From Gammaproteobacteria bacterium (GTDB taxonomy: Bacteria; Pseudomonadota; Gammaproteobacteria; Ga0077536): DNA of 42,611 nucleotides. The position numbers were made by a program, and so were the translations under genes. Shown piece by piece: positions 20,546-41,513 of this stretch. Position 1 is the first letter of the stretch; every line of letters starts with the position of its first letter. The notes under the pieces are model-generated. The model did not search any database and was not told the origin of the DNA. It saw nothing but the letters and a program-made list of their open reading frames with translations. The stretch spans positions 1-42,611 of the forward strand of contig JACPPA010000001.1 of the NCBI GenBank assembly GCA_016191285.1, written 5' to 3'.

Positions 20546-20830
20546 TGCGGACCGCTCGGACACATCGCAGGCACGATTAACATCGCACTGGTAGACCTAT
20601 CTGCTCGATTCAATCGATTAGCGCCTTATCGCCGTCGATCGATCGCGGTTGTGTGTCTCTCCGATAAGCGCTCGACTCAGGCAATTCAACTGTTGCGCGA
20701 CGCCGGATTCTCGGATCTCTTACTCCTGCGTGGTGGAATGAAAGCGTGGCATTCGACAGGATTGCCGGTGGAGACCGTTCCGATTCATACTCCGACCGAA
20801 GGGATGAGTTTGCGCAAACACGATGCTTAG
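20546..20830 (+). pseudogene. Rhodanese-domain remnant, copy of the TVP38-rhodanese C-terminus
   Basis: The frame ending in TAG at 20828-20830 reads GPLGHIAGTINIALVDLSAR, then IAVVCLSDKRSTQAIQLLRD and LLLLRGGMKAWHSTGLPVET. It aligns without gaps with the rhodanese half of the gene at 18668-19681, including the active-site loop VVCLSDKRS. There is no start codon and the first part of the domain is lost after the SHOCT gene, so this is a truncated duplicate. The catalytic loop is unchanged, so it may derive from a recent duplication or a deleted second TVP38-rhodanese gene. It ends 4 bases into the convergent czcD-like gene. Confidence 0.75.
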
Positions 20831-21747
20831 GCGTGTCCATGCGGTGGCGCCATCAGTGCACAGGCGTGGTCCAATTCGGTAGTGCCGACTTGCAAGGTTG
20901 AGTGCTGAATTCCGAAGTCTCGTTTGAGTGTCGCGCAGAGCTCGTCCAACCACCGGTCGTCGGGTCCCCCGAGTGGCACCACAAGGTGCGCGGTGAGGGC
21001 GACTTCGGTCGTGCTCAAGGCCCAGATATGAAGATCGTGCACGCTCGTGACCGCAGGTTGTGCGCGAAGAAAGTCGGCAATGGCCAGGCTGTCGATATGC
21101 GCCGGCACCGCATGCAGGGACAGCAACGCACTGTCGCTAAGCAGGCCCCAGGTGCCATAGAGGATCACCGCCAGAATCGCGAGCGTCAGCAGCGGATCCA
21201 ACCAGTACCAGGCCGTCTTCTGCATCACGATGCCGATAATGACGACGGCTAGCGAAACCGCGGCGTCGGCCGCCATATGAATGAAGGCGCCGCGGATATT
21301 CAAATCGCTTGCTCGGTCGCGCAAGAAAAAGCTTGCAGTGGTGGCATTGATAACAACCCCCACGAGCGCCACCCAGATCACCGTCGACGCGGCGACCACC
21401 GGCACCGTCGAGATCCGCTGCAACGCCTCCCACGCAATGCCGCCGCAGGCGATGAGCAACAGCATCGCGTTCGCTAGCGCCGCGAGAATGGTTGAACTAC
21501 GCAAGCCATACGTAAAGCGCGCGTCTGACTGTCGGCGAGCGAGCAACGCGGCGCCCCAGGCGAGACCAAGGCCGGCGACGTCGGTCAAGTTGTGTGCGGC
21601 ATCGGCGAGCAACGCAGTGGAGTGAGCGACGAGCCCGTAGCTGAACTCAAGGATTACGAAGCCGATATTGAGCGCGATGCCGATCGCAAACGCGCGGTTG
21701 TAACGACCCGCGTTGGCGCCGTGCCGGTGCTGATGCGTGTCAGTCAT
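20827..21747 (-). CDS. czcD: Cation diffusion facilitator, CzcD-like
   Basis: A 306-residue inner-membrane metal/proton antiporter that exports Zn, Cd or Co from the cytoplasm. It has a His-rich N-terminus (MTDTHQHRHG), six spans, and the metal site residues in LLADAAHNLTDVAGLGLAW (HxxxD, span 2) and IHMAADAAVSLAVVIIGI (HxxxD, span 5). The C-terminal cytoplasmic domain has SVHDLHIWALSTTEVALTAH and ends in DHACALMAPPHGHA. It is the last gene of the czc operon, 23 bases after czcC. The call as CzcD-type is sure; which cation is preferred is not. Confidence 0.92.
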   Translation of the reverse strand: MTDTHQHRHGANAGRYNRAFAIGIALNIGFVILEFSYGLVAHSTALLADAAHNLTDVAGLGLAWGAALLARRQSDARFTYGLRSSTILAALANAMLLLIACGGIAWEALQRISTVPVVAASTVIWVALVGVVINATTASFFLRDRASDLNIRGAFIHMAADAAVSLAVVIIGIVMQKTAWYWLDPLLTLAILAVILYGTWGLLSDSALLSLHAVPAHIDSLAIADFLRAQPAVTSVHDLHIWALSTTEVALTAHLVVPLGGPDDRWLDELCATLKRDFGIQHSTLQVGTTELDHACALMAPPHGHA

Positions 21748-21770
21748 TTAGGGTGTCCTCCGAGTTCCTT

Positions 21771-23030
21771 CTATCTCGCTGTGCTCGCGTCCGCTCCTTG
21801 CCAGAGGAGCTTCGCGTCCAGCAGTAATTCGTAGTGCGCGCGCAACGCAGCCGCGCGCGCCTGCTGCTCCGCCTCGGCACTACTCAGTGCCTGGCGGCGG
21901 GCGAGCAATAGCGTTTGCAGATCCTGTTCGCCCAACACGTAAGCCTTCTGCGCGATCGCAGCGTTCTCGCGCATGGCCACCGCGGCGGCGCTCGCCAGTT
22001 GCCAACGGCGGTGTTGCCCCTCGAGCGCAGCGTAGGCTGCGCGCGCCACACCCTCTACTTCGCGCTCGGTCGCCGCTAGCCGATCGCGGGTCGCGTTGAC
22101 TTCGGCCAGGCGTCGTCTGATCTCTAACGTTCGCCGCTCGCCCGGGAAGGGGATGCTGAGGGTGCCGCCGACGATATTCTCATCGCCTCGTATCTCGCTC
22201 GCCGCATAAACGCCTAACGTCGGGTCGGGCACGCGCTCGGCATCGGCACGGGCGGCATTCGCTTCCGCCCGCGCCTGTTCTGCCCGGGCCGCTGCAAGCT
22301 GATCGCTCACCGCGCGCACCCGTTCCTGCCACCAGGGGACATCGTGTGATGGCGGAATCGGTTCCGGTAACGGCGCGGGCAGCGGCGCGCCCGCCGCCAT
22401 GAAACGGCTCGTGAGTTTGGCGTACGCGATCGCCTCATCGGTCGCCGCCGCGCCCGCGCCGCGCTCGATATCGCTGACCTCGGCGGCAGCTAGGCGTTGG
22501 TCCAACCTTGCCGCGTCCCCGCTCTTAACGCGCTTGATAACGGCATTCAAATTGTCTTCCGCTAACCGCTGTTGCTGCATCAGCAGTGTTTTCACGGCGT
22601 GGGCGGTCAACCAGTCAAGCCAGCCGCCAAGCAAGTCCCCCGCCGCCTGGCGTCGCGCGCGACCAAGCCGCGCCTTGGCCACCGCCACGGTGGCGGTGGC
22701 GATCGCGACATCGGCCCGCTGTTTGGCCGGCAGGCGAACCTGACGTTCCAGTCCGACATTCCACTCGTGCGAGTTAGTCCCCTGGCGAAACGCGCGCTCC
22801 TGGTAGGTCAACTTGGAAGTCCATTCATAAGGCGAGACCTCGAACTGAGCGGCTTCGATCCGCGCGGCGTCCAAATCGCTGTGCGCCGCGAGGATGGTCG
22901 GATCGTGCGCCAGCCACTCAGTGGCGAGGGCTTCCGGGATCAGCGTCACGGTGGGATCCGATGCCGAGTCGGCGTGGCTGGCGGCGAGATAGAAGACGCC
23001 GAGGATCATCCCACTCCAGTGTCGCATCAA
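21771..23030 (-). CDS. czcC: Outer-membrane efflux protein, CzcC-like
   Basis: A 419-residue TolC-family channel that completes the tripartite Czc-type pump across the outer membrane. A signal peptide (GVFYLAASHADS) starts the protein. Two long helical repeats follow, with alanine- and arginine-rich coiled-coil segments such as DLDAARIEAAQFEVSPYEW, LAAARAEQARAEANAARAD and YVLGEQDLQTLLLARRQALS. A small beta segment GTLSIPFPGERRTLEI lies between. Its ATG overlaps the DUF3240 stop (ATGA). It probably works with the CzcB and CzcA proteins encoded just upstream. Confidence 0.9.
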   Translation of the reverse strand: MMRHWSGMILGVFYLAASHADSASDPTVTLIPEALATEWLAHDPTILAAHSDLDAARIEAAQFEVSPYEWTSKLTYQERAFRQGTNSHEWNVGLERQVRLPAKQRADVAIATATVAVAKARLGRARRQAAGDLLGGWLDWLTAHAVKTLLMQQQRLAEDNLNAVIKRVKSGDAARLDQRLAAAEVSDIERGAGAAATDEAIAYAKLTSRFMAAGAPLPAPLPEPIPPSHDVPWWQERVRAVSDQLAAARAEQARAEANAARADAERVPDPTLGVYAASEIRGDENIVGGTLSIPFPGERRTLEIRRRLAEVNATRDRLAATEREVEGVARAAYAALEGQHRRWQLASAAAVAMRENAAIAQKAYVLGEQDLQTLLLARRQALSSAEAEQQARAAALRAHYELLLDAKLLWQGADASTAR

Positions 23031-23326
23031 AGTTCTCCTTGGCCCAGTACCGGGACCATCCAGAATTGCACGCCGGACGCGCGAAATCGCGGACTTAAGT
23101 CCGCGAGTAACTGCTCTGCATCGCGGGTATTTAACAACGCCTGGATCAATACCGCGTCGCTGCGGCCAAGGACCTGCTCACGTGGATCGAGACCCGTGAG
23201 ATGTCCACCGTGGCGCGCAGCGCGCTGGCTCGTGAACACTTTGATCGTGGCGTTCATCAGCAATTCATCCAATAGCGATTCTTCGACCTCGGGGGGACAA
23301 AGCAAAGTGAGACAAACCTCATTCAT
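23027..23326 (-). CDS. DUF3240 family protein in czc operon
   Basis: A 99-residue soluble protein. I start at ATG 23326 because AAGGAT lies 7 bases upstream; two extra codons are possible. It has VCLTLLCPPEVEESLLDELL near the start, then FTSQRAARHGG, REQVLGRSDAVLIQAL and a C-terminal VQFWMVPVLGQGEL. This is the DUF3240 pattern, a ferredoxin-like fold similar to PII-type proteins and regularly found in heavy-metal RND operons. Its role is not settled; a cytoplasmic regulator of the pump is plausible. It overlaps both czcA (8 bases) and czcC (4 bases). Confidence 0.85.
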   Translation of the reverse strand: MNEVCLTLLCPPEVEESLLDELLMNATIKVFTSQRAARHGGHLTGLDPREQVLGRSDAVLIQALLNTRDAEQLLADLSPRFRASGVQFWMVPVLGQGEL

Positions 23327-26300
23327 GGGCAATCCTTGGGAAGGCGAAACGTGCGTAAAGCATCGGCAGCAGGATCAAGGTCAGGCTGGTCGCCGTGATG
23401 AGACCGCCGATCACGACGATGGCCAGCGGGCGTTGGATCTCCGAACCGGGTCCGGTCGCAAACAGCAAGGGCACCAGGCCGAAGGCGGTGATCGTGGCGG
23501 TCATCAGCACGGGCCGTAGGCGCCGTTTCGCGCCCACCCTGACGCATTCCGCCAGCGGCATGCCCTCGGCATGCAGTTGATTGAAATAACTGACCATCAC
23601 CACCCCATTCAGGACCGCGATCCCAAGCAGCGCGATGAAGCCCACCGATGCCGGCACCGAGAGATATTCGCCGGTCAGCCACAGCGCCAGCAGACCACCG
23701 ACCAGCGCAAACGGGATATTACTGAGCACCAGCAGCGATTGCCGCACCGAGCCGAAGGTCGAGAAGAGCAGGACGAAAATAAGAGCAAGGGCGAGCGGCG
23801 TCACTACACTCAAACGGGCTGCCGCGCGCTGCTGATTCTCGAACTGGCCGCCCCAACTGAGTCGATAGCCGTCGGGCAGTTTGACCTCGGCTGCGATCCG
23901 CCGCTTGGCCTCCTCGACGAAGCCGACCAGATCGCGGCCGGTGACATTGGCGATCACGACGCTGTAGCGGCTGCCGAGTTCGCGCTCGATCTTGACCGGC
24001 CCAGCGGCGCGTTCGAGCTTCGCCACGGCGGTGAGCGGAACGGACTCGCCGGTAGATGTCATGATCCGCAGGTTGGCGAAATCGCCCGGTGAAGTGCGGA
24101 AATTCTCGGGTCCGCGGAGCTGCACCGGCACGCGCATGTTGCCCTCGATAACTTTCCCTGCCGGTACGCCTTCGATCTGCTGGCGCAAGGCTTCTTGGAC
24201 GTCTTGGGCCGAGAGGCCGAACTTGCCAGCCGCGAGGCGATCCACCATCACGCGCATGTACTGCACACCGTCGTTGACGACGGTATAAACATCCTGGCTG
24301 CCTGGAATGGTGTTGACGATGTTGACGATGTCGCCAGCCAGTTTATTGAGCGTCGTGAGATCGGAACCGAAAATCTTAATCGCGATGTCGCCCCGCACAC
24401 CGATGACCATCTCCGAGACGCGCATGTCGATGGGTTGCGTGAAGCTGTACTTGATCCCCGGCAGCGTGTCGAGGACCTTACGCAGTTCATCCTGCAGCGC
24501 GTCCTTACTCGCCATGCGCCATTGGTCGCGCGACTTCAAGACCAGGAAGGTATCGGTTTGATTGAACCCCATGGGATCCAGTCCGATCTCATCGGCGCCG
24601 GCGCGGGCCACGATGCGGGTGACCTCGGGCACGGCCTGCATGATCGCCTGTTGGATTTTGAGATCGAGCGCGGCAGTTTGTTCAAGACTCACCGACGGTA
24701 GTTTCTCGATACCGATGATGATGTCGCCCTCGTCCATGGTCGGAATGAACGTTTTGCCAACATTGGCGTAGATCGCACCGGCGCCTACCAGCAGGCTTAC
24801 TGCGATCGCCCCGACCACCCGTGGATGCCGAAACGCCACCTCCAGGAGTGGCGCATAGAGCCGCAGTAGCTGGCGCGGCAGCCAGGGATCTTCGTGCTTG
24901 ACTTCTTTCAGCAGAAGCGAGGCCAGAACCGGGATGACAGTCAGCGATAGCAACAACGAAGCCGCCAGGGCAAACACAATCGTCTTCGCCACCGGCACGA
25001 AGAATTTGCCTTCCAGGCCTTGCAACGTCAGCAATGGCAGGAACACCGTGATGATGATCAGGATGCCGGCGGTGACCGGCGCCGCCACCTCGCGCACCGC
25101 GCGATAGATCAAATGCTGTCGCGGCAATTTGCCGGCCGTCGCATCGTGTGCCAGGTGCTGCACCACATTCTCGACCACGACCACCGCGGCGTCGACCAAC
25201 ATGCCAATGGCGATGGCGAGACCGCCCAGACTCATGAGATTGGCCGACATCTCGACCTGACGCATCAGGATAAAAGTGGCCAGCGCCGCCAGCGGCAACA
25301 CCGCCGCGACGGTCAGCGCGGCCCGCGCATTACCGAGGAAAATCCCCAGCAACACCAGCACGAGGACAATCGCCTCCTCCAGCGCCTTAGAGACCGTGGC
25401 CACCGCCTTGTCGACCAGCGCGGCGCGGTTGTAGAACACATTCAACACCGTACCCGGCGGCAGACCGGGTTTTATCTCGGCGATTTTCTTTTCGACCCCG
25501 AGCACGACCTGTTTCGCGTTAGCGCCGGCGAGCCCCAGCACCAGCCCTTCGACCGCTTCGGCCTTGCCGCTGTCCGTCACCACCCCATTGCGTGACAGTT
25601 CACCGAGTTTGACTTCCGCGACATCGCCGACGCGCACCGGGCCGCCGCTCCGGGTGCCGATGACGATCGCGCGTAGATCCTCGACACTGCGGATGTTGCT
25701 TTCGCTGCGCACCAGCAACACCTCGTCGCCTTCGCGTAAACGCCCCGCGCCGTCATTGCGATTGTTGGCGATGATGCTCGCTTGCAGTTGATCGATACTG
25801 ATGCCGGCGGCCGCCATCCGCAACGGATCGGGAATGATTTCGTAACTGCGCGTGACACCACCGAGAACATTGACGTCGGCGACGCCGGCCACGGTGCGCA
25901 GCGCCGGCCGGATCACCCATTCGAGTAAGGCCTTGCGCTCCATCAGCGACAGCGCGGGATTGTCGACGGTGAACTGGAACATTTCCCCCAGCGGCGTGGT
26001 GATCGGGGCCATGCCGCCGTCGAGACCGGCCGGCAATGCGGCCATGATCCCGGCGAGGCGCTCCGCGACCTGTTGTCGCGCCCAATAGATATCCGTGCCA
26101 TCGTCGAACGTGAGCGTGATGTCCGCGATGCCGTACTTCACCATCGAGCGCAACATGTTCTGCCGTGGGATCCCGAGCACTTCTGCCTCGATCGGGATCG
26201 CGACACGGCTTTCCATTTCCTCCGGCGTCATGCCGGGCGCCTTGAGGATGATCTTGACCTGCGTGCTCGCGACATCCGGGAAGGCATCGATCGGCAAGTG

Positions 26301-26396
26301 CCGGTAGGCGTACCAACCGGCGCCGAGCAGCAACAGCGTCAGGATAAGAACGAACGCCCGCTGGGCGAGCGCGAATTGGATGAGGCGGGTCAGCAT
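23319..26396 (-). CDS. czcA: Heavy-metal RND efflux pump, CzcA-like
   Basis: A 1025-residue inner-membrane proton-driven pump with twelve predicted spans and two large periplasmic loops. ATG 26396 is preferred (MLTRLIQFALAQRAFVLILT), three bases after the czcB stop. Conserved segments include YRHLPIDAFPDVASTQVKI, ILGIPRQNMLRS-type porter sequence, FTQPIDMRVSEMVIGVRGD and PTMDEGDIIIGIEKLPSVSL. Span 4 reads AIAIGMLVDAAVVVVEN. The classical CzcA has a charged DFG...DGAVVIVEN there, so the proton-relay residues differ and the substrate class is uncertain, although the FTQPIxMR loop is CzcA-like rather than CusA-like. It is cotranscribed with czcB, DUF3240, czcC and czcD. Confidence 0.92.
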   Translation of the reverse strand: MLTRLIQFALAQRAFVLILTLLLLGAGWYAYRHLPIDAFPDVASTQVKIILKAPGMTPEEMESRVAIPIEAEVLGIPRQNMLRSMVKYGIADITLTFDDGTDIYWARQQVAERLAGIMAALPAGLDGGMAPITTPLGEMFQFTVDNPALSLMERKALLEWVIRPALRTVAGVADVNVLGGVTRSYEIIPDPLRMAAAGISIDQLQASIIANNRNDGAGRLREGDEVLLVRSESNIRSVEDLRAIVIGTRSGGPVRVGDVAEVKLGELSRNGVVTDSGKAEAVEGLVLGLAGANAKQVVLGVEKKIAEIKPGLPPGTVLNVFYNRAALVDKAVATVSKALEEAIVLVLVLLGIFLGNARAALTVAAVLPLAALATFILMRQVEMSANLMSLGGLAIAIGMLVDAAVVVVENVVQHLAHDATAGKLPRQHLIYRAVREVAAPVTAGILIIITVFLPLLTLQGLEGKFFVPVAKTIVFALAASLLLSLTVIPVLASLLLKEVKHEDPWLPRQLLRLYAPLLEVAFRHPRVVGAIAVSLLVGAGAIYANVGKTFIPTMDEGDIIIGIEKLPSVSLEQTAALDLKIQQAIMQAVPEVTRIVARAGADEIGLDPMGFNQTDTFLVLKSRDQWRMASKDALQDELRKVLDTLPGIKYSFTQPIDMRVSEMVIGVRGDIAIKIFGSDLTTLNKLAGDIVNIVNTIPGSQDVYTVVNDGVQYMRVMVDRLAAGKFGLSAQDVQEALRQQIEGVPAGKVIEGNMRVPVQLRGPENFRTSPGDFANLRIMTSTGESVPLTAVAKLERAAGPVKIERELGSRYSVVIANVTGRDLVGFVEEAKRRIAAEVKLPDGYRLSWGGQFENQQRAAARLSVVTPLALALIFVLLFSTFGSVRQSLLVLSNIPFALVGGLLALWLTGEYLSVPASVGFIALLGIAVLNGVVMVSYFNQLHAEGMPLAECVRVGAKRRLRPVLMTATITAFGLVPLLFATGPGSEIQRPLAIVVIGGLITATSLTLILLPMLYARFAFPRIAHE

Positions 26397-26397
26397 G

Positions 26398-27522
26398 TCA
26401 CTTGTCCTCCCCTCCACCGACCTGAAGCCAGGCTGCTTTCAGACTAATGACGCCGGTGGCGGCGATCCGTTGCCCGGCCACCAACTCCCCCTTTACTGTC
26501 GCGCGCTGGCCCGTGTTGGCCAAGACCTCGACGGGGGTGGCTTTGAAACGATCGTCGACGCGGACGAATACATAAGCTTGGTTGCCGTCACGTGCGAGTG
26601 CGGAAAGCGGCACCTGCCAGGCATTCGCCGCGGCCACCGGCAGATCGACTTGAACAAATTCACCCGGTCGCAGGTTCGTCGTATTACTGACTAGCCGCGC
26701 GCGCAGCAGTACGCGCTGGGCGTTGTCGGCCAATGGACTAACGCTCAAGACCTCGGCCGCGAGGTCGCCGGTCACCGTTAATTTTGATCCAGGAGGCCAT
26801 TGGGCGGCCTCCGCACTCGGCACCTGGACATCGATCCACAGCTCATCCAGGCGTGCGATACGTAGTAGCGGCTCAATCTCGGTCACTCGCCGACCTGGCT
26901 TAACGTCGACCCCGATCACCGTCCCCGCGCTACGTGCGGTAATGGTAAGTTCGTCATGAAGGACACTCGCATCGGCGACGCGCGCGACCTCGAGTTCGCT
27001 CAAGCCGGCCAGCCGCAGCGCGGCTGTGGCCTGCGTGAACTCAGCCCGACTATCGCTGGCTGCGGTATCGGCCTCCACCACTCGACGTTCGGCGATGATG
27101 CCCTCACCGAACAGCGTGCGTTCGCGCGCGGCAGTTTTTTTCGCTAGTCGTGCGCGATTGGCGGCTTGCACGACGGCGAGCTGTAGCCGTCCTAGCTCTG
27201 GACTGCTGAGGACGAGTAGCGGTGTCCCAACCTGCACGGTCTGGTTCTCCTCGATGAGCACCTGGGTGACGAGGCCGGCCACCGGCGCGCTGACCACGCG
27301 TTGTTGCCGAGGCGGTAAGACCACTACCGCAGGGTAGCGGATCCCGGATCCCTGGCCTGCTTTCCGACCCTGCTTGTCAAGTGCTATGAGTTCGATGCCG
27401 AGTGCGCGCACCTGCTCGTCGGTGACCGAAAAATCGTTGGCGCGATCGGCGGCGGGCGCCGATGACACAGCGAGGAGTATTGCTAGCATCGGAATGCCGC
27501 GTTTCAATATCGGAATTGACAT
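26398..27522 (-). CDS. czcB: RND periplasmic adaptor, CzcB-like
   Basis: A 374-residue membrane-fusion protein linking the CzcA pump to the CzcC channel. I start at ATG 27522, which has GAGGG 5 bases upstream; the longer frame uses TTG. A signal peptide ends near SSAPAADR. The lipoyl/barrel-sandwich halves are VVSAPVAGLVTQVLIEENQT and ITARSAGTVIGVDVKPGR, separated by a helical hairpin (LQLAVVQAANRARLAKKTAA to LSELEVARV). The beta-barrel and membrane-proximal parts follow (LWIDVQVPSAEAAQW, NLRPGEFVQVDLPV). No His-rich metal-binding N-terminal extension of the classic CzcB type is present. Its stop is one base from the czcA start. Confidence 0.9.
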   Translation of the reverse strand: MSIPILKRGIPMLAILLAVSSAPAADRANDFSVTDEQVRALGIELIALDKQGRKAGQGSGIRYPAVVVLPPRQQRVVSAPVAGLVTQVLIEENQTVQVGTPLLVLSSPELGRLQLAVVQAANRARLAKKTAARERTLFGEGIIAERRVVEADTAASDSRAEFTQATAALRLAGLSELEVARVADASVLHDELTITARSAGTVIGVDVKPGRRVTEIEPLLRIARLDELWIDVQVPSAEAAQWPPGSKLTVTGDLAAEVLSVSPLADNAQRVLLRARLVSNTTNLRPGEFVQVDLPVAAANAWQVPLSALARDGNQAYVFVRVDDRFKATPVEVLANTGQRATVKGELVAGQRIAATGVISLKAAWLQVGGGEDK

Positions 27523-27638
27523 GAAAGCCCTCGAGAACAACCACCACGTTCAACAAACGCCGGTGCCGGTCGGCCCTTGGGGCCTGCGCACTGGCGAAGG
27601 ATTAGGAAAGCCCGCCGGACGGGGGCAGCGAAGGATGA

Positions 27639-31438: not shown

Positions 31439-32329
31439 TCAAAACCAGAGGCGCACGCCGACCACCACCGCAATGTCCTCGGCACGTCCGCCTTCACGCC
31501 GCGAGATGTCGGCGGTGTCGCCAAACCGGCGCAGCCAGGTGACGCCAAGGTAAGGCGCAAACTCGCGTCTGATTTCATAACGCAAGCGCAAGCCCAGCCC
31601 AAGGCTGTTAATCCCCTCGCCGACGCCGAATTTTTCAGCCGCTTGCACGGCAGCATCGAAATCCAGGCGCGGCTGGAGAATGAGGCGCTGGGTGAGCAAC
31701 ACCTCATACGTGGCCGTGAGACGCGCGGAAACATCGCCGTTCTGGCTAATGAATAAGGCGGGTTCAAACTCGAATCGGTAAGGCGCCAATCCTTGGAGGC
31801 CGATGACGGCGAAGCCGCGCGAACGGTCGAACCCTGCACCGGAAAATTGGTCATAGCGCAAGCCCACCTGGAAGTCCCAGAAAGGCGCGATCAGGCGGCC
31901 ATAGAGGGTTTGGACTTCCGCTTCACCGCCACGTTCGCCACCCGTGCGCCATTCACCTTCTGTCTTCACCCAAAGACGGTTGTAGTCACCGCCATACCAG
32001 CCCACGACGTCCCAGCGCGCGGTATCGTCGGCACCGCTTTTCATCCGGTATTCAAGTTGATCGACGAGCAGGTAGCCAAACTGCTGGCGGTCTTCGACTG
32101 GCTGGGGCCAATTCTTTCTCACGGTGCCCGGCGGCGATTGTGTATCGCCATCCGCGCCGCCATTCATGGCCGTGACCTCCGCCACGGCGGCTGTTGATCC
32201 TGAAGGCGGTTGACCGTGCGTGCCTTGATGCGCCGAAGCGGGCTGCGCCGTTGCTTGAATCGGCGCGAGAAGGCCAAGCAGGCTGGCGGCCGCGACGGAC
32301 GTTTTAGCGATCCATGAGTGGCCGTTCAC
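31439..32329 (-). CDS. copB: Copper resistance protein CopB
   Basis: A 296-residue outer-membrane beta-barrel protein. GTG 32329 is chosen since it overlaps the copA stop (GTGA), giving MNGHSWIAKTSVAAASLLGL as a signal peptide. The longer frame into copA is not needed. The mature N-terminus is His/Pro/Gly-rich (SAHQGTHGQPPSG) but has fewer Met than Pseudomonas CopB. The barrel part carries FGYLLVDQLEYR, GWYGGDYNRLWVKTEGEW, VQTLYGRLIAPFWDFQVGLR, NSLGLGLRLRYEIRREFAPY and a final VVVGVRLWF. It binds or sequesters copper at the outer membrane with CopA. Confidence 0.92.
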   Translation of the reverse strand: MNGHSWIAKTSVAAASLLGLLAPIQATAQPASAHQGTHGQPPSGSTAAVAEVTAMNGGADGDTQSPPGTVRKNWPQPVEDRQQFGYLLVDQLEYRMKSGADDTARWDVVGWYGGDYNRLWVKTEGEWRTGGERGGEAEVQTLYGRLIAPFWDFQVGLRYDQFSGAGFDRSRGFAVIGLQGLAPYRFEFEPALFISQNGDVSARLTATYEVLLTQRLILQPRLDFDAAVQAAEKFGVGEGINSLGLGLRLRYEIRREFAPYLGVTWLRRFGDTADISRREGGRAEDIAVVVGVRLWF

Positions 32330-34224
32330 GATGCGTCTCCTTCGTTGCCAATGACGGACACGACGCGGAACATTCCCATTTCCATGTGATAGAGGACGTG
32401 ACAATGAAACGCCCAGTTACCCAGCGCGTCCGCCGTAATGTCCAACGACAGCCGCTCGGCGGGTTTGACGTTAACGGTATGTTTCTTTGGTTTGAACGGC
32501 CCAGCACCGGTGTCCAGTTCCATGAACATGCCGTGGAGGTGGATGGGATGATTCATCATGGTGTCGTTCACCAAGGTGAGGCGCACTCGCTCGCCGTAGT
32601 AAAACTTGATTGGCTCGGCTTCGGAAAATTTCTTGCCGTCAAAGCCCCACATGTAGCGCTCCATATTGCCGGTGAGGTGAAGTTCGATTTCTCGGCCGGG
32701 CGGCCGGAGATCTTCGCTGGGCCGGAGACTCCGCAGGTCGCTGTAAAGCAGCACGCGTGTGCCGGTGGCCTCCAGGCCGGTGCCGGGTTCATCCAACCGG
32801 CTTTTCGTCTCCATGGGTACTGCGGAATTTCCTGGGCCGTGGGTGTCGGGTCCGTGTTTGACGGGGGCGCTCTTAGTCATGGAGTCAGCCATCGGCGCTG
32901 CGTCTATTTTCACTCCGGGCATCTTCATTCCCGGCATAGCCGACATGGCATCGGTTGCCGGCGGGGTAGGATCCATCGCCTGCATTGTCGTCGCCGGCAT
33001 CTTCATGCCTGCCATGTTCGTTGCGTCCCCGCCCTTTTTGCCTTCGCTTCCACTCATACCCTTCATGCCCGCCATGTCGCCCATGCCCATATCAGCCATG
33101 GTGGCGACCACCCGTTGTCGCCGCGGCGGGAGCGGTGCGCTCATGCCCTGTGCAGTCGCGAGCGTGCCGCGCGCAAATCCGCTGCGGTCCATGGCCTCGG
33201 CAAAAATGGTGTAGGCATGCTCCTCTTTCGGCGCGACGATCACGTCATACGTCTCGGCAATGGCGATGCGGATTTCATCCACCGTCACCGGCTGCACGTG
33301 CTGGCCATCCACCGCGACAACCGTCATTGAGAGACCCGGGATCCGCAGATCGAAATAGGTTGCCGCGCCGGCGTTGATGAAGCGCAGCCGCACGCGCTCG
33401 CCCGGCTGAAAGAGCGCCGTCCAATTCGATTCCGGCGCGAAGCCGTTCATCAAAAACGTATAGGTGAAACCCGACACGTCCGAGATGTCGCTCGGATCCA
33501 TGCGCATGCGACCCCACTCCAAGCGATCCGTGACCGTGGCCTTGAAGCCATTGCTCGCCACGTCATCGAAGAAGGTGCCGACCGTGCGGCGTTGGAAATT
33601 GTAATAGTTTTGCCGCCGCTTCAGCCGTGCCATGACGCGCATCGGATTCTCCGATGTCCAATCTGAAAGCACGACGACGTGTTCGCGGTCATAGTGGAAA
33701 GGTTCTGGCTCGGCCGCGTCGATAATCAGTGGGCCGTAATGACCCGCCTGTTCCTGGCCTGCGGAGTGGCTGTGATACCAGTAGGTGCCGTTTTGGCGCA
33801 CCGGGAAACGGTAGGTGAACGTTTCTCCCGCTTTGATCCCTGCGAAGCTCACGCCCGGCACGCCGTCCATGCCGGGCGGCAGCAGCAATCCGTGCCAATG
33901 AATGGACGTGTCTTCCTCGAGACCATTCGTGACGCGCAGGATCGCGTCGCGGCCTTCGCGCAGCCGTACAAGCGGACCCGGGACCGTGCCGTTGATGGTG
34001 ACGGCGGCACCGCGACGTTCGCCGAACTGTAACGTTTCTTCGCGGACTAGAAGGTCGATCCCGTTGGCCTCGGAATCACCGACTGAACTCGCTTTCAAAC
34101 CGCTGGGTTCAACCGCGTAAGCGGGCGCGATGCGGTGTAGGCCCGCCAGCAGACCGAGCGTAACGGAGGCGTGGACAAAGCGGCGCCTGTTTATTAGAAG
34201 TTCGAATGGTGGTTTCACAATCAT
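32326..34224 (-). CDS. copA: Multicopper oxidase CopA
   Basis: A 632-residue periplasmic multicopper oxidase that oxidises Cu(I) and sequesters copper. The N-terminus has a Tat-like signal (NRRRFVHASVTLGLLAG). Copper ligands are visible in TSIHWHGLLLPPGMDG, YWYHSHSAGQEQ, NHPIHLHGMF and WAFHCHVLYHMEMGMF (the T1 site with the axial Met). A Met/Gly-rich insert of about 80 residues (MGMGDMAGMKGMSG onward to MADSMTK) is the extra Cu(I)-binding region of CopA-type enzymes. GTG at 34218 is an alternative start with better spacing to GAGGG. It overlaps copB by four bases and follows a Met-rich gene. No copC or copD is in the window. Confidence 0.95.
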   Translation of the reverse strand: MIVKPPFELLINRRRFVHASVTLGLLAGLHRIAPAYAVEPSGLKASSVGDSEANGIDLLVREETLQFGERRGAAVTINGTVPGPLVRLREGRDAILRVTNGLEEDTSIHWHGLLLPPGMDGVPGVSFAGIKAGETFTYRFPVRQNGTYWYHSHSAGQEQAGHYGPLIIDAAEPEPFHYDREHVVVLSDWTSENPMRVMARLKRRQNYYNFQRRTVGTFFDDVASNGFKATVTDRLEWGRMRMDPSDISDVSGFTYTFLMNGFAPESNWTALFQPGERVRLRFINAGAATYFDLRIPGLSMTVVAVDGQHVQPVTVDEIRIAIAETYDVIVAPKEEHAYTIFAEAMDRSGFARGTLATAQGMSAPLPPRRQRVVATMADMGMGDMAGMKGMSGSEGKKGGDATNMAGMKMPATTMQAMDPTPPATDAMSAMPGMKMPGVKIDAAPMADSMTKSAPVKHGPDTHGPGNSAVPMETKSRLDEPGTGLEATGTRVLLYSDLRSLRPSEDLRPPGREIELHLTGNMERYMWGFDGKKFSEAEPIKFYYGERVRLTLVNDTMMNHPIHLHGMFMELDTGAGPFKPKKHTVNVKPAERLSLDITADALGNWAFHCHVLYHMEMGMFRVVSVIGNEGDAS

Positions 34225-34334: not shown

Positions 34335-34655
34335 CTACTTGTCCGTCCCCTCCATCTTCATTCCCTTACCCATGCCCTCCATCATCTTGCCGTCCATCGT
34401 CATCATCTGACCTTCCTGCATGCGCATCTCTTTGCCATCGTTCATTTTCATCGTGCCGTCCGGCATCACCTTGTGGCCGTCTGGCATCGTCATCTCGTGG
34501 TCCATTGGCCCGGTGGCCTTGCCGTCCTTCATCATCATCATCTTCCCATCCTTCATCATGATGCCTGCCATGTCGGCGGCTACCACAGGGAACGCGAGGA
34601 CCGACACGGATACGAGTGCAACAGCTGCGAGGGCGACAGTTCTGTACTTCTTCAT
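34335..34655 (-). CDS. Met-rich exported protein, DUF6799-like
   Basis: A 106-residue protein with a signal peptide (VLAFPVVAADMAG) and a strong AAGGAG 6 bases before its ATG. The mature part is a set of short repeats of the form MxxxDGKMMMM: IMMKDGKMMMMKDG, MTMPDGHKVMPDGTMKMNDG, EMRMQEGQMMTMDGKMM. This matches a family I recall as DUF6799. Such proteins probably bind Cu(I) through Met thioethers in the periplasm. It is the first gene of the copper operon, 110 bases before copA. A GC-rich hairpin (CGCCCG/CGGGCG, 34305-34321) in the gap may lower expression of downstream genes. Confidence 0.8.
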   Translation of the reverse strand: MKKYRTVALAAVALVSVSVLAFPVVAADMAGIMMKDGKMMMMKDGKATGPMDHEMTMPDGHKVMPDGTMKMNDGKEMRMQEGQMMTMDGKMMEGMGKGMKMEGTDK

Positions 34656-34934: not shown

Positions 34935-35711
34935 TCAGTGGTGCTTGTAGAAGCCGACATTCACGATGTCGTTCCAACTGGTCGTGTTATGACATTCGAA
35001 GCACTCATCCACGCGCGCGTGCTCCTTGCCCGCGAACTTCTGTGAGACCATCGAGAAGTGCTCCATGAAATGACTCGGCGGCGGTTGATGGCACTGCACA
35101 CACTCCTTGGAGCGGGAGGATGGGTGTTGGTAGCCGGCAATGATCCACGACTCGAGCCCATGGCACTGCGCACAGTCACTGCCAAACCGCTTGAAATGTG
35201 GGTCCCGGCGATCGTGACATCCGGCGCAGTTGAGGGCCTCGCGCGTCGAGTTCGCGTCGAGTTGCTCGGGTCGTTGGATGCGGAGCCACGTCTCAAGCGA
35301 TTTCAGGGTGGCCGCGCTGTCGGCGTCACTGCGCGATGCGCGGGCAAGGGTCCGTGCCCCGACTTTAGCGAGCGCCACATGGTCCATCACCAGCGGTCGG
35401 AGATTCGTAGGCTGATGCTCGATATGACATGCAGCGCATTCCTCAATGCTCGCGTGAAACGCGGTCGGCTGGCGACCCAGCAGCCGCTCGGCATTTGCAT
35501 GACACGCCGTGCAATTCGCGACCGTCACGCCGACAGCCGGCTCATGGCAGGTAGTGCAGCGGTCGCTCAGGTAAGCGTGCCGCGCGGACAGCGGTCCGGG
35601 ACGCACTAACTGTTGCCACGTCGCGGATGTCGGCTTGAAATGCACCATGGCGAGTGACGCCGCGGTGGCAACCGCGATGATGAGCGCGGACCACAGCGCG
35701 AACTGCTTCAT
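34935..35711 (-). CDS. Seven-haem c-type cytochrome
   Basis: A 258-residue protein started at ATG 35711, which overlaps the previous gene's stop (ATGA); the longer frame reads back into that gene. An N-terminal membrane anchor or signal (FALWSALIIAVATAASLAM) is followed by seven CxxCH haem sites: CTTCH, CTACH, CAACH, CAGCH, CAQCH, CVQCH and CFECH. Haems 1-3 and 4-7 form two groups separated by about 80 residues. It resembles NapC/NrfH-adjacent and doubled-CxxCH cytochromes, but I cannot place it in a named family. It lies in the periplasm and is the last gene of the operon, downstream of a b-type cytochrome and a reductase, so it likely receives electrons from them. Confidence 0.85.
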   Translation of the reverse strand: MKQFALWSALIIAVATAASLAMVHFKPTSATWQQLVRPGPLSARHAYLSDRCTTCHEPAVGVTVANCTACHANAERLLGRQPTAFHASIEECAACHIEHQPTNLRPLVMDHVALAKVGARTLARASRSDADSAATLKSLETWLRIQRPEQLDANSTREALNCAGCHDRRDPHFKRFGSDCAQCHGLESWIIAGYQHPSSRSKECVQCHQPPPSHFMEHFSMVSQKFAGKEHARVDECFECHNTTSWNDIVNVGFYKHH

Positions 35712-36451
35712 TGCAGCCACCGCAGGCCGAAGTAGATTCCGGATCCGATATGGAGCGCGAGCAGCACGTAGAGCATGACGGACAGCACAATGTGCAGCGT
35801 CAGCGAACGGCGGAACCAACGTTTGAAAAATTCGTGCAGGCGGATCGCGTACTCCAGGTCCACCACGGATTCGGCAATGCGGATCACCTCAGCGGCCGGC
35901 CCGCTGGAGGCGATCTCGAACCCCAACGACGCCAGACCAGCCGCCCAGACGGGCGCCTTCGGGAGGTCTCTCATTGCGGGAGGCGAGTTCGCGAGCACTC
36001 CCCACGCACTGTCGAGATCGCCCCTGGCGGTCTGCAGCAGCGCCAACTGGTCGCTGATCTCATGCGCGACATAGGTGAGCAGGTAGCGAACCGCAAACCC
36101 GCTCACGACGACCAGTAGCATCACTGCCGTTAGCGCAATTCCCAGCACGCTGTCGAACTTGTGACCGGTGTGAATGATCGCGAGTAACGGGCCGAGAATG
36201 CCCGCGTAGGTGTGCAGAGTAAGCAACGAGCGCAGCGAAACGTGCGGAGTCATTCGCGCGTTGAGGACGGGAATACGCTTGGCGATGAGGTAGGCGAGCG
36301 GCACGAGCATGAGCACGGCGCCCGCGATCCCGAACACCGCTCCGATTCCGCTGCCAGGGAAGCGCGGTGAGCGGTGGACGAGGAAGCCGAGCCAGGCCAG
36401 CAACAACACGCAGACGACACCGCTGACGACGATGCCTTCACGCTCCTTCAT
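35708..36451 (-). CDS. Dihaem b-type membrane cytochrome
   Basis: A 247-residue integral membrane protein with about five spans. Two His pairs 14 residues apart lie within spans: H80/H94 (LHTYAGILGPLLAIIH) and H220/H234 (LHIVLSVMLYVLLALH), the pattern of a four-helix bundle binding two b haems across the membrane. A further His is at 97 (HTGHKF). A 75-residue soluble loop lies between the pairs. It is related in design to cytochrome b561 or ferric-reductase-like proteins, with no flavin domain of its own. The neighbouring gene supplies an FAD/NAD(P)H/2Fe-2S module, and the following gene a multihaem c cytochrome, so it should carry electrons across the inner membrane. Confidence 0.75.
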   Translation of the reverse strand: MKEREGIVVSGVVCVLLLAWLGFLVHRSPRFPGSGIGAVFGIAGAVLMLVPLAYLIAKRIPVLNARMTPHVSLRSLLTLHTYAGILGPLLAIIHTGHKFDSVLGIALTAVMLLVVVSGFAVRYLLTYVAHEISDQLALLQTARGDLDSAWGVLANSPPAMRDLPKAPVWAAGLASLGFEIASSGPAAEVIRIAESVVDLEYAIRLHEFFKRWFRRSLTLHIVLSVMLYVLLALHIGSGIYFGLRWLQ

Positions 36452-36457
36452 GGCGCG

Positions 36458-38539
36458 CTAGGCCTCGACCGCGATGTCGTTCTTAGGCTTCGCCTGGCAG
36501 GCCAGAATGATGCCGTTGGTTTTGTCGTCAGCATCGAGCGCGTCCTCCACCGTCATCTCGACCTCGCCAGAAGTCATCTTCACCTTGCAAATGCCGCAAG
36601 TGCCGACGCGGCAGGAGAATTCGATGCCGATGGCGAGCTCTTCCGAGAGTTCGAGAACGGTCTGATCGACATGAATTTTGGCCGACTTATGGTTCTTCGA
36701 AAACGTGACCAGCGGGCCAGTCGCAGGCACCGTGGGTTTGGCGGTGGTCCCGGCGGCGGCCGGGGCAGGCTTGGTAGCGCCAAATGCTTCGGTCTTCACC
36801 TGCTCGGCAGCAACGCCGAGATCGGTGAGGAGGGCCCTGATTGAATCCATCATCGTCGGCGGCCCGCACAGGTGGATCCTCCGCGACGCAAGATCGGGAA
36901 CTGTCTGCATGAGCAGTTCCTTACTGATCCGTCCGCGAGCACCCTTCCAGTCGGTCCCTTCTGCTTTGGAAATCGTGACCGCGACGTGCAAGTGCGGATT
37001 TCGGCGCTGAAGCGCTGCAACTTCTTCCGCAAAAATAAAATCGGCCGGCGCGCGGCAGGTGTAAATGAAAAATATATCCCCAGCCCATGACCGCTCCGTC
37101 AGATATCGGGTGATGCTCATCATCGGCGTGATACCCACGCCGCCGGCGATGAGCACGATGCTGTCCGCCTCTGTGCCGGCAAATGTAAACCTGCCGACCG
37201 GACCTCCTGCTTCGATCCGATCGCCCACCTTGAGCAGATCGTTGATGTGACGCGAGACCGCGCCGCGCGGCTCACGCCGCACGGTCAGATCGACGTGGTC
37301 GCGCTGCGTCGGGGAGGATGAGATGGAGTAGGAGCGGTTCATTCGCGCGCCGCCAATCCCGAACGCGACGTTGAGAAACTGGCCGGGCATGAAGGTGAAC
37401 GGTATGAGGCTTTCGCTGGATGACGGTAGGAGGCGAAACGTTTTGACGCCGGGCGTTTCCGTGATGACATTCCCAATGCGGAGCTGCCCGCGCCAGTTCG
37501 CGGTCAGAGGCGGCGCTGAGGTCGCCTCCGAAACGGCGGGCGGCGTAGCGGGCGTGGCCTGAGAACCGCCGGCAGCGGGAGGGGCTGGTGACGTATCCGC
37601 TGCTTTGGTGAGTTCCGCTTCGGCTCGCGACCAGTCGATTTCGGGAGAGCCCATCGGCCGTCCTCGCGCCTGCCAGAGCGCATCCGCTCGGCCTGCAATT
37701 TCTGCGGCATCTCCGCTCGGCTTGGCCGCAGCAGAAGTCGGCCCGGCAGTCGGCGGTGCAGACGGCCCGGAGCCTCCGGCAAGCGGCGGTGACGCGCCGG
37801 GCGGGGGCGCTCCCGAATCGGGCTCGATACGCCCAAAGAGCGCTGCTGTGCGGCGCATCTTGAAGAAGTACATGACGACCATCGAGAGCGCGAAAGCTAT
37901 CAGCAGCCCCATCGTGAAGAGGTGAAAGGATGTGACGCCTACGCGTGCGTGCGACTCATCGCGTGCGATGGGCGACGCAAGGTTCATCTCGCGTTTGAAC
38001 CAGTCGAGCGCAAGGTTGCGCGGTGCCTTGCCTTCCGACAGGACCCGCCGCGCCGCAATCCCCGCGCCGAGTTCGTCGAGGCCCTCACGCATCAGGCCAA
38101 CTGCTTGTTGCATCGCTGCGTGGTCTTCGGCTTGGGTCGCACGGTCGAGCGACTCGGCACCTTTCGCGAGTCGCGCCATGCCGTCAGCGGTTTGCACACC
38201 CGCGAGTGCATCGATCTCGGCGCGCTTCTCCGGGGTGAGTGCAGGAAGCGTCATCAGCGACGGATAAATCGGCGTTTTCGCTGCACCTGATCCGCAACCA
38301 CCCCCCATGCAACCGCCCGCCGCGGAAGGGGCCATCATTTTGCCCATCATCTCGCCCATTCCGCCGCCGGCCGCGCCGGGTGCTGCCGTGGCTGCACTGA
38401 TCGGCACGCCCGGTACGGCGGCGGCAGCGCCCCCGCCAGGATGATGGCTGGCGTGCTCTTCCGGCGTGAGGGCGCCGGCGCTAAGCGCAATGAGTACGAG
38501 CGCCGCCGCGATGCCGCCGATAACCGTCCGGTGGATCAC
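36458..38539 (-). CDS. Membrane-anchored FAD/NAD(P)H/2Fe-2S oxidoreductase with Met/His/Cys-rich head
   Basis: A 693-residue multidomain protein. Residues 1-24 are a signal or anchor. Residues 25-90 are a His/Met/Cys-rich region (HASHHPGGG, MGEMMGKMM, GGCMGGGCGSG). A helical part follows, then a span at about 201-226 ending FKMRR (cytoplasmic by positive-inside). A Pro/Ala-rich linker leads to an FAD domain (ARMNRSYSISSSP), an NAD(P)H domain (SIVLIAGGVGITPMMSIT, HLCGPPTMMDSI) and a C-terminal plant-type 2Fe-2S ferredoxin domain (SCRVGTCGICKVK, last Cys in ILACQ). It should pass electrons from NAD(P)H to the b cytochrome encoded 6 bases downstream. The periplasmic metal-binding head is unusual and may sense or hold copper. 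Confidence 0.85.
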   Translation of the reverse strand: MIHRTVIGGIAAALVLIALSAGALTPEEHASHHPGGGAAAAVPGVPISAATAAPGAAGGGMGEMMGKMMAPSAAGGCMGGGCGSGAAKTPIYPSLMTLPALTPEKRAEIDALAGVQTADGMARLAKGAESLDRATQAEDHAAMQQAVGLMREGLDELGAGIAARRVLSEGKAPRNLALDWFKREMNLASPIARDESHARVGVTSFHLFTMGLLIAFALSMVVMYFFKMRRTAALFGRIEPDSGAPPPGASPPLAGGSGPSAPPTAGPTSAAAKPSGDAAEIAGRADALWQARGRPMGSPEIDWSRAEAELTKAADTSPAPPAAGGSQATPATPPAVSEATSAPPLTANWRGQLRIGNVITETPGVKTFRLLPSSSESLIPFTFMPGQFLNVAFGIGGARMNRSYSISSSPTQRDHVDLTVRREPRGAVSRHINDLLKVGDRIEAGGPVGRFTFAGTEADSIVLIAGGVGITPMMSITRYLTERSWAGDIFFIYTCRAPADFIFAEEVAALQRRNPHLHVAVTISKAEGTDWKGARGRISKELLMQTVPDLASRRIHLCGPPTMMDSIRALLTDLGVAAEQVKTEAFGATKPAPAAAGTTAKPTVPATGPLVTFSKNHKSAKIHVDQTVLELSEELAIGIEFSCRVGTCGICKVKMTSGEVEMTVEDALDADDKTNGIILACQAKPKNDIAVEA

Positions 38540-39462
38540 ATGTCTCCCATTCCGGCGTTGCCTTGGTTGTCCGGGGTTTTCCCACCGCCTGCGGTGCCTG
38601 CTGGATCTCCACTCATTCCGCTCTTTGGAGCCATCGGATCCACGCCGCTTTGCGGGGTCATGGCGCCAGTCGAAGGTTGCGGAACGGCCATTGGAGCCGT
38701 CCCAGGTGCTGCAGTGCCGAACAATGCAGCGCGCTGATCATCGGTGAGCACGCGAGCCGCCGCCCCGACCGAGTGGATGAACGCGATCCGTTGATCGCCT
38801 TTCAGCTTTTCGATCTCGCGCACCGTCGTCACCACCGTCATCGAGTCGGGCCGATCGGAACCGGTGAGCGTCCATAGTTCCTGCTCGGCTTGATCGATCT
38901 TGCGCTGTCCCGCCGCCACATCCCCCATCGACTTCTCTTTGATTCCATTGAGTGCGGCCTGTTGATCCGCCGTCAGCTTGATGGCTGCGGAGTAGTCGAG
39001 GAAAAATCCGGTCGCACCGAGGTGGTAGATCGTTGAGGCGCCCGGGAAGCCCGGTAGATCGGTCGACATCGTCGTTGACCCGGCGGCGCCCATCTTCTCC
39101 ATCATTCCGGCGCAACATCCGGCCGGCGCCGGCATGCTCTTGTTGTCCAGCGGCGGCGTACTCGGCGCGCCACTCATACCCTTGTCGGCCGTCACTACGC
39201 CGACAGGCTGCATCCCGACCTGGGCGCCGCCTCGGCGGTTCTGGTCGAGTGCAGCCTCGATCTGCGCAAGCCGCGACTTCAGCTTGGCCACTTCCTGCGC
39301 TAGCGACGCTTGCTGCGCCGATTCCATGTTCGGCAGCGAGTGTTGTCTAGAGCCGGGCGGCGTTACTTGCGCGAACACCGCCGGCAACGGGGCGATCAGC
39401 ACAATGAATATCGCCGCGATCCTCGCCTTCGCGCTCTGCGATTGTCTAGCGTCGGGGGTCAT
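38536..39462 (-). CDS. Exported Spy/CpxP-like (LTxxQ) protein with Met-rich tail
   Basis: A 308-residue protein with a signal peptide (IVLIAPLPAVFAQ), AAGGGA before its ATG, an N-terminal coiled coil (LAQEVAKLKSRLAQIEAAL), a CC pair in GCCAGMMEKM, and two LTxxQ-type motifs, KLTADQQAALNGIK and VLTDDQRAALFG, as in Spy, CpxP, ZraP and CnrX. The C-terminus is a low-complexity Met/Pro/Gly tail. The family senses metals or acts as a periplasmic chaperone. It is the first gene of the four-gene operon and overlaps the reductase start by ATGA. It probably links metal stress to the redox chain. Confidence 0.75.
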   Translation of the reverse strand: MTPDARQSQSAKARIAAIFIVLIAPLPAVFAQVTPPGSRQHSLPNMESAQQASLAQEVAKLKSRLAQIEAALDQNRRGGAQVGMQPVGVVTADKGMSGAPSTPPLDNKSMPAPAGCCAGMMEKMGAAGSTTMSTDLPGFPGASTIYHLGATGFFLDYSAAIKLTADQQAALNGIKEKSMGDVAAGQRKIDQAEQELWTLTGSDRPDSMTVVTTVREIEKLKGDQRIAFIHSVGAAARVLTDDQRAALFGTAAPGTAPMAVPQPSTGAMTPQSGVDPMAPKSGMSGDPAGTAGGGKTPDNQGNAGMGDM

Positions 39463-39601: not shown

Positions 39602-39931
39602 CTACATGTCGCCTCCCATCCCTCCGCCCGGAGCCATTGGAGCAGCAGGTGGGGCACCGTCAGAAGCCGGCATCTGGGGTGCCGGCTGAGGCATTGTTCC
39701 CATAGCACCCCCCATGCTCTTTTCCGCCATCGGCTGCTTATGTTTCATCATGTGCTTCATCATGCCGGACTGCTCGTGAGAAGCCGCTTCCAGCTTGAGT
39801 ACTCGCGCCTCGAGCTGCTGGATACGCGCGCTTTCATCCGCGGACCACGCTTGCTCCGATACCAGACCGACTGCTGATGCGGTTGTCAGCATGACGCCCA
39901 GCGCAACGGCTCTTTTGGGTTTGTTGTACAT
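39602..39931 (-). CDS. Small Met-rich exported coiled-coil protein
   Basis: A 109-residue protein with GAGGTG before its ATG and a signal peptide ending QAWSAD. A short coiled coil (ARIQQLEARVLKLEAASHEQ) is followed by a Met/His-rich stretch (SGMMKHMMKHKQPMAEKSMG) and a Pro/Met/Gly tail ending GGGMGGDM. It shares this plan (coiled coil, then Met-rich low-complexity tail) with the Spy-like protein downstream but lacks LTxxQ motifs. Likely a periplasmic copper or silver binder. It lies upstream of the redox operon on the same strand, separated by an AT-rich hairpin. Confidence 0.7.
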   Translation of the reverse strand: MYNKPKRAVALGVMLTTASAVGLVSEQAWSADESARIQQLEARVLKLEAASHEQSGMMKHMMKHKQPMAEKSMGGAMGTMPQPAPQMPASDGAPPAAPMAPGGGMGGDM

Positions 39932-41102: not shown

Positions 41103-41513
41103 ATGCTTACATCGGTCCGCAACCAAGTTCAGCGCCGGCGTATCTCCGCCCACCTGCTAATCCTGTGGACGTCGTTCTTGCTCTTGCAGCCACTGCTGCC
41201 GTGTTGCGAAACAATCACTGCAGCCGTTGCCGAGGATCACGCCGAACTGCACGATGGCGTGGATCATGGACACCACGAGGGACATCACCGGGTCCCAATC
41301 TCTGACCACGTCCACTGCGAGCAGATAGGCGTCGATATCGGCGCATTAGCGCCCTGTGCCGCAGAACGGCCGTCGCCGCCGCACCCCGTTATTGCAGTCA
41401 TCGGCACCGAGGATTTTCTCGGTTACCCGGTGCTCGTTACCCCTTTCCGTGCACGGCATCACAACGCGCGATCGCCGCCGATCTATCTCCTTACCCTCCG
41501 TTTGCGAATCTAG
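41103..41513 (+). CDS. Small His-rich exported protein
   Basis: A 136-residue protein of a type often seen near copper or mercury genes, but I cannot name the family. The N-terminal segment LLILWTSFLLLQPLLPCCET looks like a signal peptide or anchor with two cysteines at its end (possible lipobox-like or metal site). It is followed by a His/Asp cluster (DHAELHDGVDHGHHEGHH) and VHCEQ. The C-terminus has SPPIYLLTLRLRI. It probably binds metal in the periplasm. It precedes the MerR gene on the same strand by about 100 bases. Confidence 0.6.
   Translation: MLTSVRNQVQRRRISAHLLILWTSFLLLQPLLPCCETITAAVAEDHAELHDGVDHGHHEGHHRVPISDHVHCEQIGVDIGALAPCAAERPSPPHPVIAVIGTEDFLGYPVLVTPFRARHHNARSPPIYLLTLRLRI

Follow-up and report, generated by a model that had tools for sequence, protein, structure and literature searches.

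The window analysed here is a stretch of 42,611 nucleotides from a gammaproteobacterial genome (assembly GCA_016191285.1, contig JACPPA010000001.1, positions 1 to 42,611). On its minus strand, three adjacent genes encode a membrane-anchored reductase, a putative b-type membrane cytochrome and a c-type cytochrome with seven CXXCH motifs. These three genes are called the "core" below. They are preceded by a fourth gene, which encodes an exported protein. In the order of transcription, the four genes are as follows (FAD, flavin adenine dinucleotide; NAD, nicotinamide adenine dinucleotide).

38536..39462, minus strand: optional first gene, an exported, Met-rich, weakly Spy/Metal_resist-like protein of 308 amino acids (open reading frame with a sub-threshold Metal_resist match)
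36458..38539, minus strand: core gene 1, a membrane-anchored FAD/NAD/2Fe-2S reductase of 693 amino acids with a GTG start (Pfam domains over cut-off)
35708..36451, minus strand: core gene 2, a b-type membrane cytochrome of 247 amino acids with the pairs H80/H94 and H220/H234 (invariant histidines, predicted to bind haem)
34935..35711, minus strand: core gene 3, a c-type cytochrome of 258 amino acids with seven CXXCH motifs and an N-terminal hydrophobic span (motifs and Pfam)

The positions of the four genes, the seven CXXCH motifs and the four paired histidines reported in an initial annotation of this DNA were all found again on the sequence. The b and c genes share an ATGA overlap at 35708-35711, and the reductase and b genes are separated by six bases, CGCGCC, at 36452-36457, both as described earlier. 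The overlap of the first gene with the reductase gene at 38536-38539 reads GTGA, however, and not ATGA. Chance or misread open reading frames can be ruled out, because homologues in other phyla retain the order of the last three genes. A phage origin was likewise rejected, the b protein having no match in the phage collection.

Proteins of the core and the first gene

In the reductase, the FAD_binding_6, NAD_binding_1 and Fer2 domains all score over their Pfam cut-offs, with the 2Fe-2S domain situated at the C-terminus. Hydropathy analysis gives a signal-like hydrophobic span at residues 6-24 and an internal span at residues 207-225. The polypeptide runs from the signal-like span through a His/Met-rich tail, a helical hairpin and the membrane span to the FAD, NAD and 2Fe-2S domains. 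The predicted structure has a mean pLDDT (predicted local distance difference test) of 75.4 and is confident in the hairpin (residues 103-169), the membrane helix and the reductase domains. Its top Foldseek match is phthalate dioxygenase reductase (2pia, E 1.4e-22). The tail is well conserved: the motif HxxHH occurs in 70 and a Met cluster in 67 of the 72 full-length homologues, although these counts, like those of CXXCH and of terminal HH given below, come from regular expressions without a chance control. In loci L092, L093, L096, L098, L103 and L114, the cytoplasmic linker of the reductase contains an additional Cys-containing segment, including a CC pair, that is lacking in the window reductase.

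The b protein has five membrane spans according to hydropathy, with H80 and H94 located in the third and H220 and H234 in the last hydrophobic span. In an alignment of 52 b proteins, comprising the window protein and those of 51 of the 80 loci described below, H26, H80, H94, H97, H220, H234 and a C-terminal GLRW are invariant. The model of the b protein (mean pLDDT 85.0; predicted template modelling score, pTM, 0.68) contains five long membrane-type helices, formed by residues 2-23, 35-59, 73-95, 102-155 and 185-245, and the His pairs occupy the third and the last of them. The initial annotation had made it a check that the pairs should fall in facing spans; in the model the two pairs are on different helices, which is consistent with this. 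H80 probably pairs with H220 at an inner haem and H94 with H234 at an outer haem.

Attempts to name the b protein gave no usable assignment. In Pfam the window protein stays below every cut-off, and NCBIfam yields no match for it up to E 0.1. Its profile, when compared with PDB sequences, matched ATP synthase b best (E 0.045), with a ferric reductase at E 0.54, and this route was rejected. Naming by fold was rejected as well: the Foldseek search was empty at E up to 0.001 and the VIA list consists mostly of unrelated long-helix proteins. In particular, the VIA-align match of the model to the Streptococcus pneumoniae NADPH oxidase 8qta (Z 8.5, root-mean-square deviation 3.6, 122 aligned) is equalled by unrelated helical proteins. 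At E up to 1, weak matches to DUF4405 (PF14358) were found in 28 of the 52 b homologues (best E 6.4e-7) and to Ferric_reduct (PF01794) in 17 of the 52 (best 3e-4); the window protein matches neither family up to E 1.

More distant relatives of the b protein are found in other surroundings. All 12 of those considered, which are open reading frames of 192 to 404 residues, contain exactly two HX13H pairs. Two or more such pairs were also held by 487 of 20,000 shuffles of the window b protein; the pattern is thus not rare, and its weight rests on conservation. In 11 of the 12 cases the distant relative adjoins a c protein with 8 to 24 CXXCH motifs, and in L057 and L061 it also adjoins a reductase-like open reading frame. 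In L064, a distant relative lies near a protein of 1213 amino acids with 34 CXXCH motifs (L064:3844-7485). In L066, which belongs to a genome (G414) of the same family as that of the window, a distant b relative and a 24-CXXCH protein are followed by an open reading frame of 2326 amino acids (L066:12022-19001) that contains 77 CXXCH motifs. Fusion of the C-terminus of the b cytochrome to a further domain was observed at L094:5866-7593 (DUF547), L095:2888-4450 and L099:6167-7801.

The CXXCH motifs of the c cytochrome are situated at residues 52, 67, 92, 162, 180, 204 and 237. The protein scores above the cut-offs of both Cytochrom_c3_2 (37.8 bits, cut-off 25) and Cytochrome_C7 (32.3 bits, cut-off 24.8), and hydropathy gives it one N-terminal hydrophobic span. 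When it was compared by sequence with the PDB, the best match reached only E 0.25. Exactly seven CXXCH motifs are present in 79 of the 80 c homologues, the exception (L151) being split 3+4. Histidines 45, 86, 99, 111, 172, 196, 214 and 218 are kept in at least 96% of the rows, and 76 of the 80 proteins terminate in HH. The number of histidines would suffice for seven bis-His haems, with some to spare.

The first-gene protein has an N-terminal hydrophobic span (residues 15-33), in agreement with its earlier description as a "Spy-like" exported protein. The likeness itself is weaker than that name implies, because the protein misses the cut-offs that would place it with the Spy/CnrX-type periplasmic metal proteins: Metal_resist (PF13801) reaches 27.3 bits against a cut-off of 29.2, and LTXXQ reaches 11.1 bits against 24.3. 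Metal sensing, which the initial annotation ascribed to this gene, is a putative role. Following a Met-rich stretch, members of the family have a motif resembling LYHIGxTGFFLDH, a relaxed form of which is present in 32 of 36 profile matches.

Conservation and genomic setting

A scan of 84,980 species genomes with one peptide pattern yielded 233 relatives, of which the best 80 loci were kept. The seed alignment of the pattern was drawn partly from copper plasmids, and copper contexts may be favoured among these loci. The reductase, b and c genes lie in a fixed order on one strand in 80/80 kept loci, and in 77/80 under a strict distance rule. The initial annotation had named co-occurrence in other genomes as a check on its four genes; the check comes out in favour of these three, which make up the conserved unit. 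In a profile search, relatives of the first gene were located upstream of the core, on its strand, in 33 of 79 loci, and the distance was at most 700 bases in 23. The Legionella and Stutzerimonas loci whose upstream flank is long enough have none. Where 3 kb or more of upstream sequence was available, 30 of 66 loci contain the gene, and it is an optional accessory outside the core.

Within the phylum of the window, b relatives were found in 37 of 398 genomes, including that of the window; six others match end to end and the rest partially. The end-to-end match in G259 is in two pieces. In the order, 12 of 36 genomes have b matches, and besides the window only G415 has a full-length one, at 76% identity. 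The b protein is also matched by 52 plasmid records, 50 of them over at least 80% of the query. Each of seven plasmid regions inspected has a gene for a 2Fe-2S/FAD reductase, a b gene and a c cytochrome gene, the last being annotated as hypothetical in the Spirosoma plasmid, where it was recognised by its seven CXXCH motifs. The Bradyrhizobium BTAi1 plasmid (L042) carries two copies of the core, at 10244-13517 and 19264-23728, one of which has a short reductase gene abutting an IS3 transposase; the BTAi1 genome has three b matches.

A quick tree built from the 52 b proteins covers ten named phyla: Pseudomonadota, Planctomycetota, Verrucomicrobiota, Nitrospirota, Acidobacteriota, Hydrogenedentota, Bacteroidota, Myxococcota, Chloroflexota and Cyanobacteriota. 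Many rows are metagenome bins, so that phyla seen in a single bin may be mis-binned. The tree has 15 label changes against a minimum of 9, which suggests, but does not prove, transfer. The pairwise distances of the three core proteins co-vary (r 0.86, 0.71 and 0.77; 37 rows including the window, with L093 dropped and species kinship uncontrolled), as expected if the three proteins form a unit.

In the window, the gene set is flanked by the following genes.

39602..39931, minus strand: small Met-rich exported open reading frame upstream of the set (from sequence; no Pfam match up to E 1)
34335..34655, minus strand: small Met-rich DUF6799 protein downstream of the set (DUF6799, 76.3 bits)
32326..34224, minus strand: CopA-type multicopper oxidase (TIGR01480, 824.6 bits, cut-off 478.95)
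31439..32404, minus strand: CopB (PF05275, 273 bits)
20827..27540, minus strand: CusB-, CusA- and outer-membrane-type efflux genes and a cation diffusion facilitator (CDF) transporter (HlyD_D23, TIGR00914, CDF and OEP)

The same strand also holds a glucoamylase-like gene, besides the CopA, CopB, Cus-type and CDF genes. Past the upstream end of the island, a MerR-type regulator gene lies on the plus strand (41356-42120).

The copper or metal setting noted in the initial annotation recurs in other genomes. It was evaluated with family profiles over the whole of 40 genomes, which were chosen by the author from the 80 loci and include near relatives (three Legionella, five of the Alteromonas group and two Stutzerimonas); the expected numbers of neighbours presuppose evenly spread genes, and a single core was counted in each genome. 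Cu-oxidase_3 was found within 20 kb of the core in 23/40 genomes (0.73 expected) and HMBD in 21/40 (0.90 expected). One or the other is present within 20 kb in 31/40 (1.62 expected) and within 30 kb in 35/40 (2.40 expected). The five genomes with neither within 30 kb are G445, G472, G456, G458 and G464; four of these cores are on contigs shorter than 35 kb, and two of the five (loci L126 and L138) do carry copper-type ATPase or Cus matches. These profiles supersede a single-query tally of copper genes in 48/80 loci, because single queries miss relatives and the flanks used stop at 10 kb or at contig ends.

Copper genes are the commonest neighbours found, yet they are not the sole ones. A scan of 114 out of the 163 neighbouring proteins of 44 loci gave Metal_resist (7), E1-E2 ATPase (5), HMBD (4), Na_H_Exchanger (4), glucose-6-phosphate dehydrogenase (3) and acetate kinase (2). 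Of the 11 genomes with DUF1622, 7 have it no more than 10 kb from the core (0.041 expected). Phosphoketolase and acetate kinase genes are situated directly upstream of the core in L091 (3-3085) and L096 (2879-7929).

In the Alteromonas macleodii plasmid pAM1A3 (L156:9001-18400), a single open reading frame and then a [NiFe] hydrogenase operon come after the core, all on one strand. The intervening open reading frame, of 407 amino acids, has no Pfam match. Passages of PMC3102683 give the order of the Alteromonas macleodii hydrogenase cluster as orf1/cyt/orf2/hynD/hupH/hynS/hynL/hyp. The pAM1A3 order fits that of the published cluster, and its b and c genes were therefore probably in print in 2011; by gene order, they are probably Orf1 and Cyt.

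Comparison with known systems

The core has features in common with several characterised systems. Haem b has been reported in DUF4405 and FezC proteins, which are tied to flavinylated systems and ferrosomes (PMC11334425, in part). The likeness lies in the four histidines for two putative membrane haems; weak DUF4405 matches occur in 28/52 homologues but not in the window protein. However, the DUF4405-like cytochromes have six transmembrane helices according to passages of the same paper, whereas the window b protein has five membrane spans. The partners also differ, being flavinylated proteins there and an NAD(P)H reductase with a heptahaem cytochrome here. Family scans of 31 open reading frames of the window turned up no ApbE or FMN-binding (flavin mononucleotide-binding) partner.

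In NADPH oxidases (NOX), the paired histidines are spaced 14 residues apart, in two helices. The core resembles these enzymes and the ferric reductases in having two HX13H pairs in two helices and an FAD/NAD(P)H donor. In the NADPH oxidases the dehydrogenase is part of the membrane chain, whereas here it is encoded by a separate gene and has an added 2Fe-2S domain and a periplasmic tail. Moreover, the acceptor in the core would be a c cytochrome.

MsrPQ likewise has a membrane haem protein supplying periplasmic reducing power and is copper-induced in E. coli (PMC9302797, in part); the core differs in its own dedicated reductase, in its heptahaem cytochrome and in the lack of MsrP from the set. 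The reductase shares its FAD, NAD and C-terminal 2Fe-2S domains with the phthalate-dioxygenase-type reductases, but in the window protein these follow a periplasmic N-terminal part and a membrane anchor. The c protein belongs with the class III/c7-type multihaem cytochromes by both family profile and CXXCH motifs. The likeness to Orf1 and Cyt of Alteromonas macleodii is one of gene order, and the passages of PMC3102683 mention neither the reductase nor copper.

The core may thus be described as a split NOX/DUF4405-like conduit in which a 2Fe-2S reductase, membrane-anchored and metal-tailed, is combined with a heptahaem cytochrome. It was not assigned to DUF4405 or NOX, because it lacks the six helices and the single-chain dehydrogenase, respectively, nor to MsrPQ, because no MsrP turned up among the window open reading frames scanned. 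Searches of the open-access literature, including parts of PMC11334425, PMC10141476, PMC8478169, PMC3102683 and PMC9302797, gave no name for the set.

Direction of electron flow and possible acceptors

The reading favoured here, in which we place about even confidence, is that the core, carried in copper islands, uses NAD(P)H to drive electrons across the inner membrane and most likely reduces metal ions with them. If the three proteins form a complex and the haem sites are occupied, electrons would pass from cytoplasmic NAD(P)H to FAD and on to the 2Fe-2S centre, all within the reductase. From there they would pass to the inner and then to the outer haem of the b cytochrome and reach the heptahaem c cytochrome in the periplasm, to which the His/Met-rich tail of the reductase would also be exposed. 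At the end of the path, the electrons are probably taken up by something small or generic. Metal ions such as Cu(II) or Ag(I), kept close to the Met/His-rich tails, are the most likely candidates and would be reduced for sequestration or export. The role in metal detoxification or in thiol protection put forward in the initial annotation is hypothetical.

Two points speak for outward flow: the donor module is a reductase for NAD(P)H, and the strongest context is copper resistance. For the latter there is a precedent of periplasmic reduction in copper stress, as copper induces MsrPQ in E. coli by way of CusSR, and MsrPQ in turn maintains CusF (PMC9302797). A metal ion is favoured as the acceptor because the core has Met/His-rich tails and no periplasmic enzyme.

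Several observations weigh against this reading. The b model has no Foldseek match at E up to 0.001. Reduction of Cu(II) would oppose the neighbouring CopA oxidase. The nearby copper genes may merely reflect shared islands, and genes of other kinds are also found close to the core. Phosphoketolase is within 10 kb in 3/40 genomes (0.054 expected), and ATP-synthase-like genes are just upstream in the Legionella loci L100:4800-7938, L108:4648-7777 and L122:4914-7313. A strong match to the [NiFe] hydrogenase large subunit (E below 1e-100) was found in 9/40 genomes, in five of which the hydrogenase is within 10 kb of the core (5/40; 0.051 expected). Relatives situated beside [NiFe] hydrogenase or phosphoketolase genes may have a wider redox role.

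The first alternative, which appears unlikely, resembles MsrPQ: outward electrons would keep periplasmic proteins reduced, for example the methionines of Met-rich copper proteins, either directly or via an enzyme encoded elsewhere. It would be in keeping with the copper induction of MsrPQ and with the several Met-rich exported proteins encoded in the island. However, no MsrP-type enzyme turned up in the family scans of the 31 window open reading frames, and seven c haems are not known to be required by MsrQ-type systems.

Slightly less likely still, the core may serve generally as a redox valve or as a side branch of respiration, through which electrons of NAD(P)H would pass to varied acceptors when the cell is stressed or short of oxygen, with copper islands as one of several homes. 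Phosphoketolase and DUF1622 are near the core more often than expected, and the 8-to-24-CXXCH proteins beside the distant b relatives are reminiscent of extracellular electron transfer. Nevertheless, genes of copper type occur near the core far more often, and the reductase has conserved its His/Met tail.

Inward flow would start with a periplasmic donor (such as H2 via [NiFe] hydrogenase) passing electrons to the c cytochrome and end with the reduction of NAD(P)+ by the chain. It is improbable in spite of the gene order of pAM1A3 and the excess of nearby hydrogenases, as the window genome has no NiFe hydrogenase match, 31/40 sampled genomes have no strong one, and Orf1 and Cyt are dispensable for maximal hydrogenase activity in E. 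coli (PMC3102683, in part), in an assay that probes maturation and not electron flow. A role as a [NiFe] hydrogenase accessory was thus rejected for the window and kept as a rival for the Alteromonas-like loci.

Copper resistance is usually explained by efflux, oxidation and sequestration. In a more specific form of the favoured reading, put forward tentatively, the core would be a mobile, dedicated periplasmic metal reductase: a split NOX-like wire whose heptahaem cytochrome reduces Cu(II) or Ag(I) on the reductase's own His/Met tail. If so, it would constitute an active reductive arm of copper resistance beside the three usual ones. The b cytochrome represents an uncurated branch of membrane cytochromes, paired elsewhere with proteins of 8 to 24 haems. 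Because the core genes are small, lie next to one another and occur in culturable bacteria, the idea can be tested directly. As the core lies beside copper genes across many phyla, and on plasmids too, active reduction may be a recurring part of copper islands.

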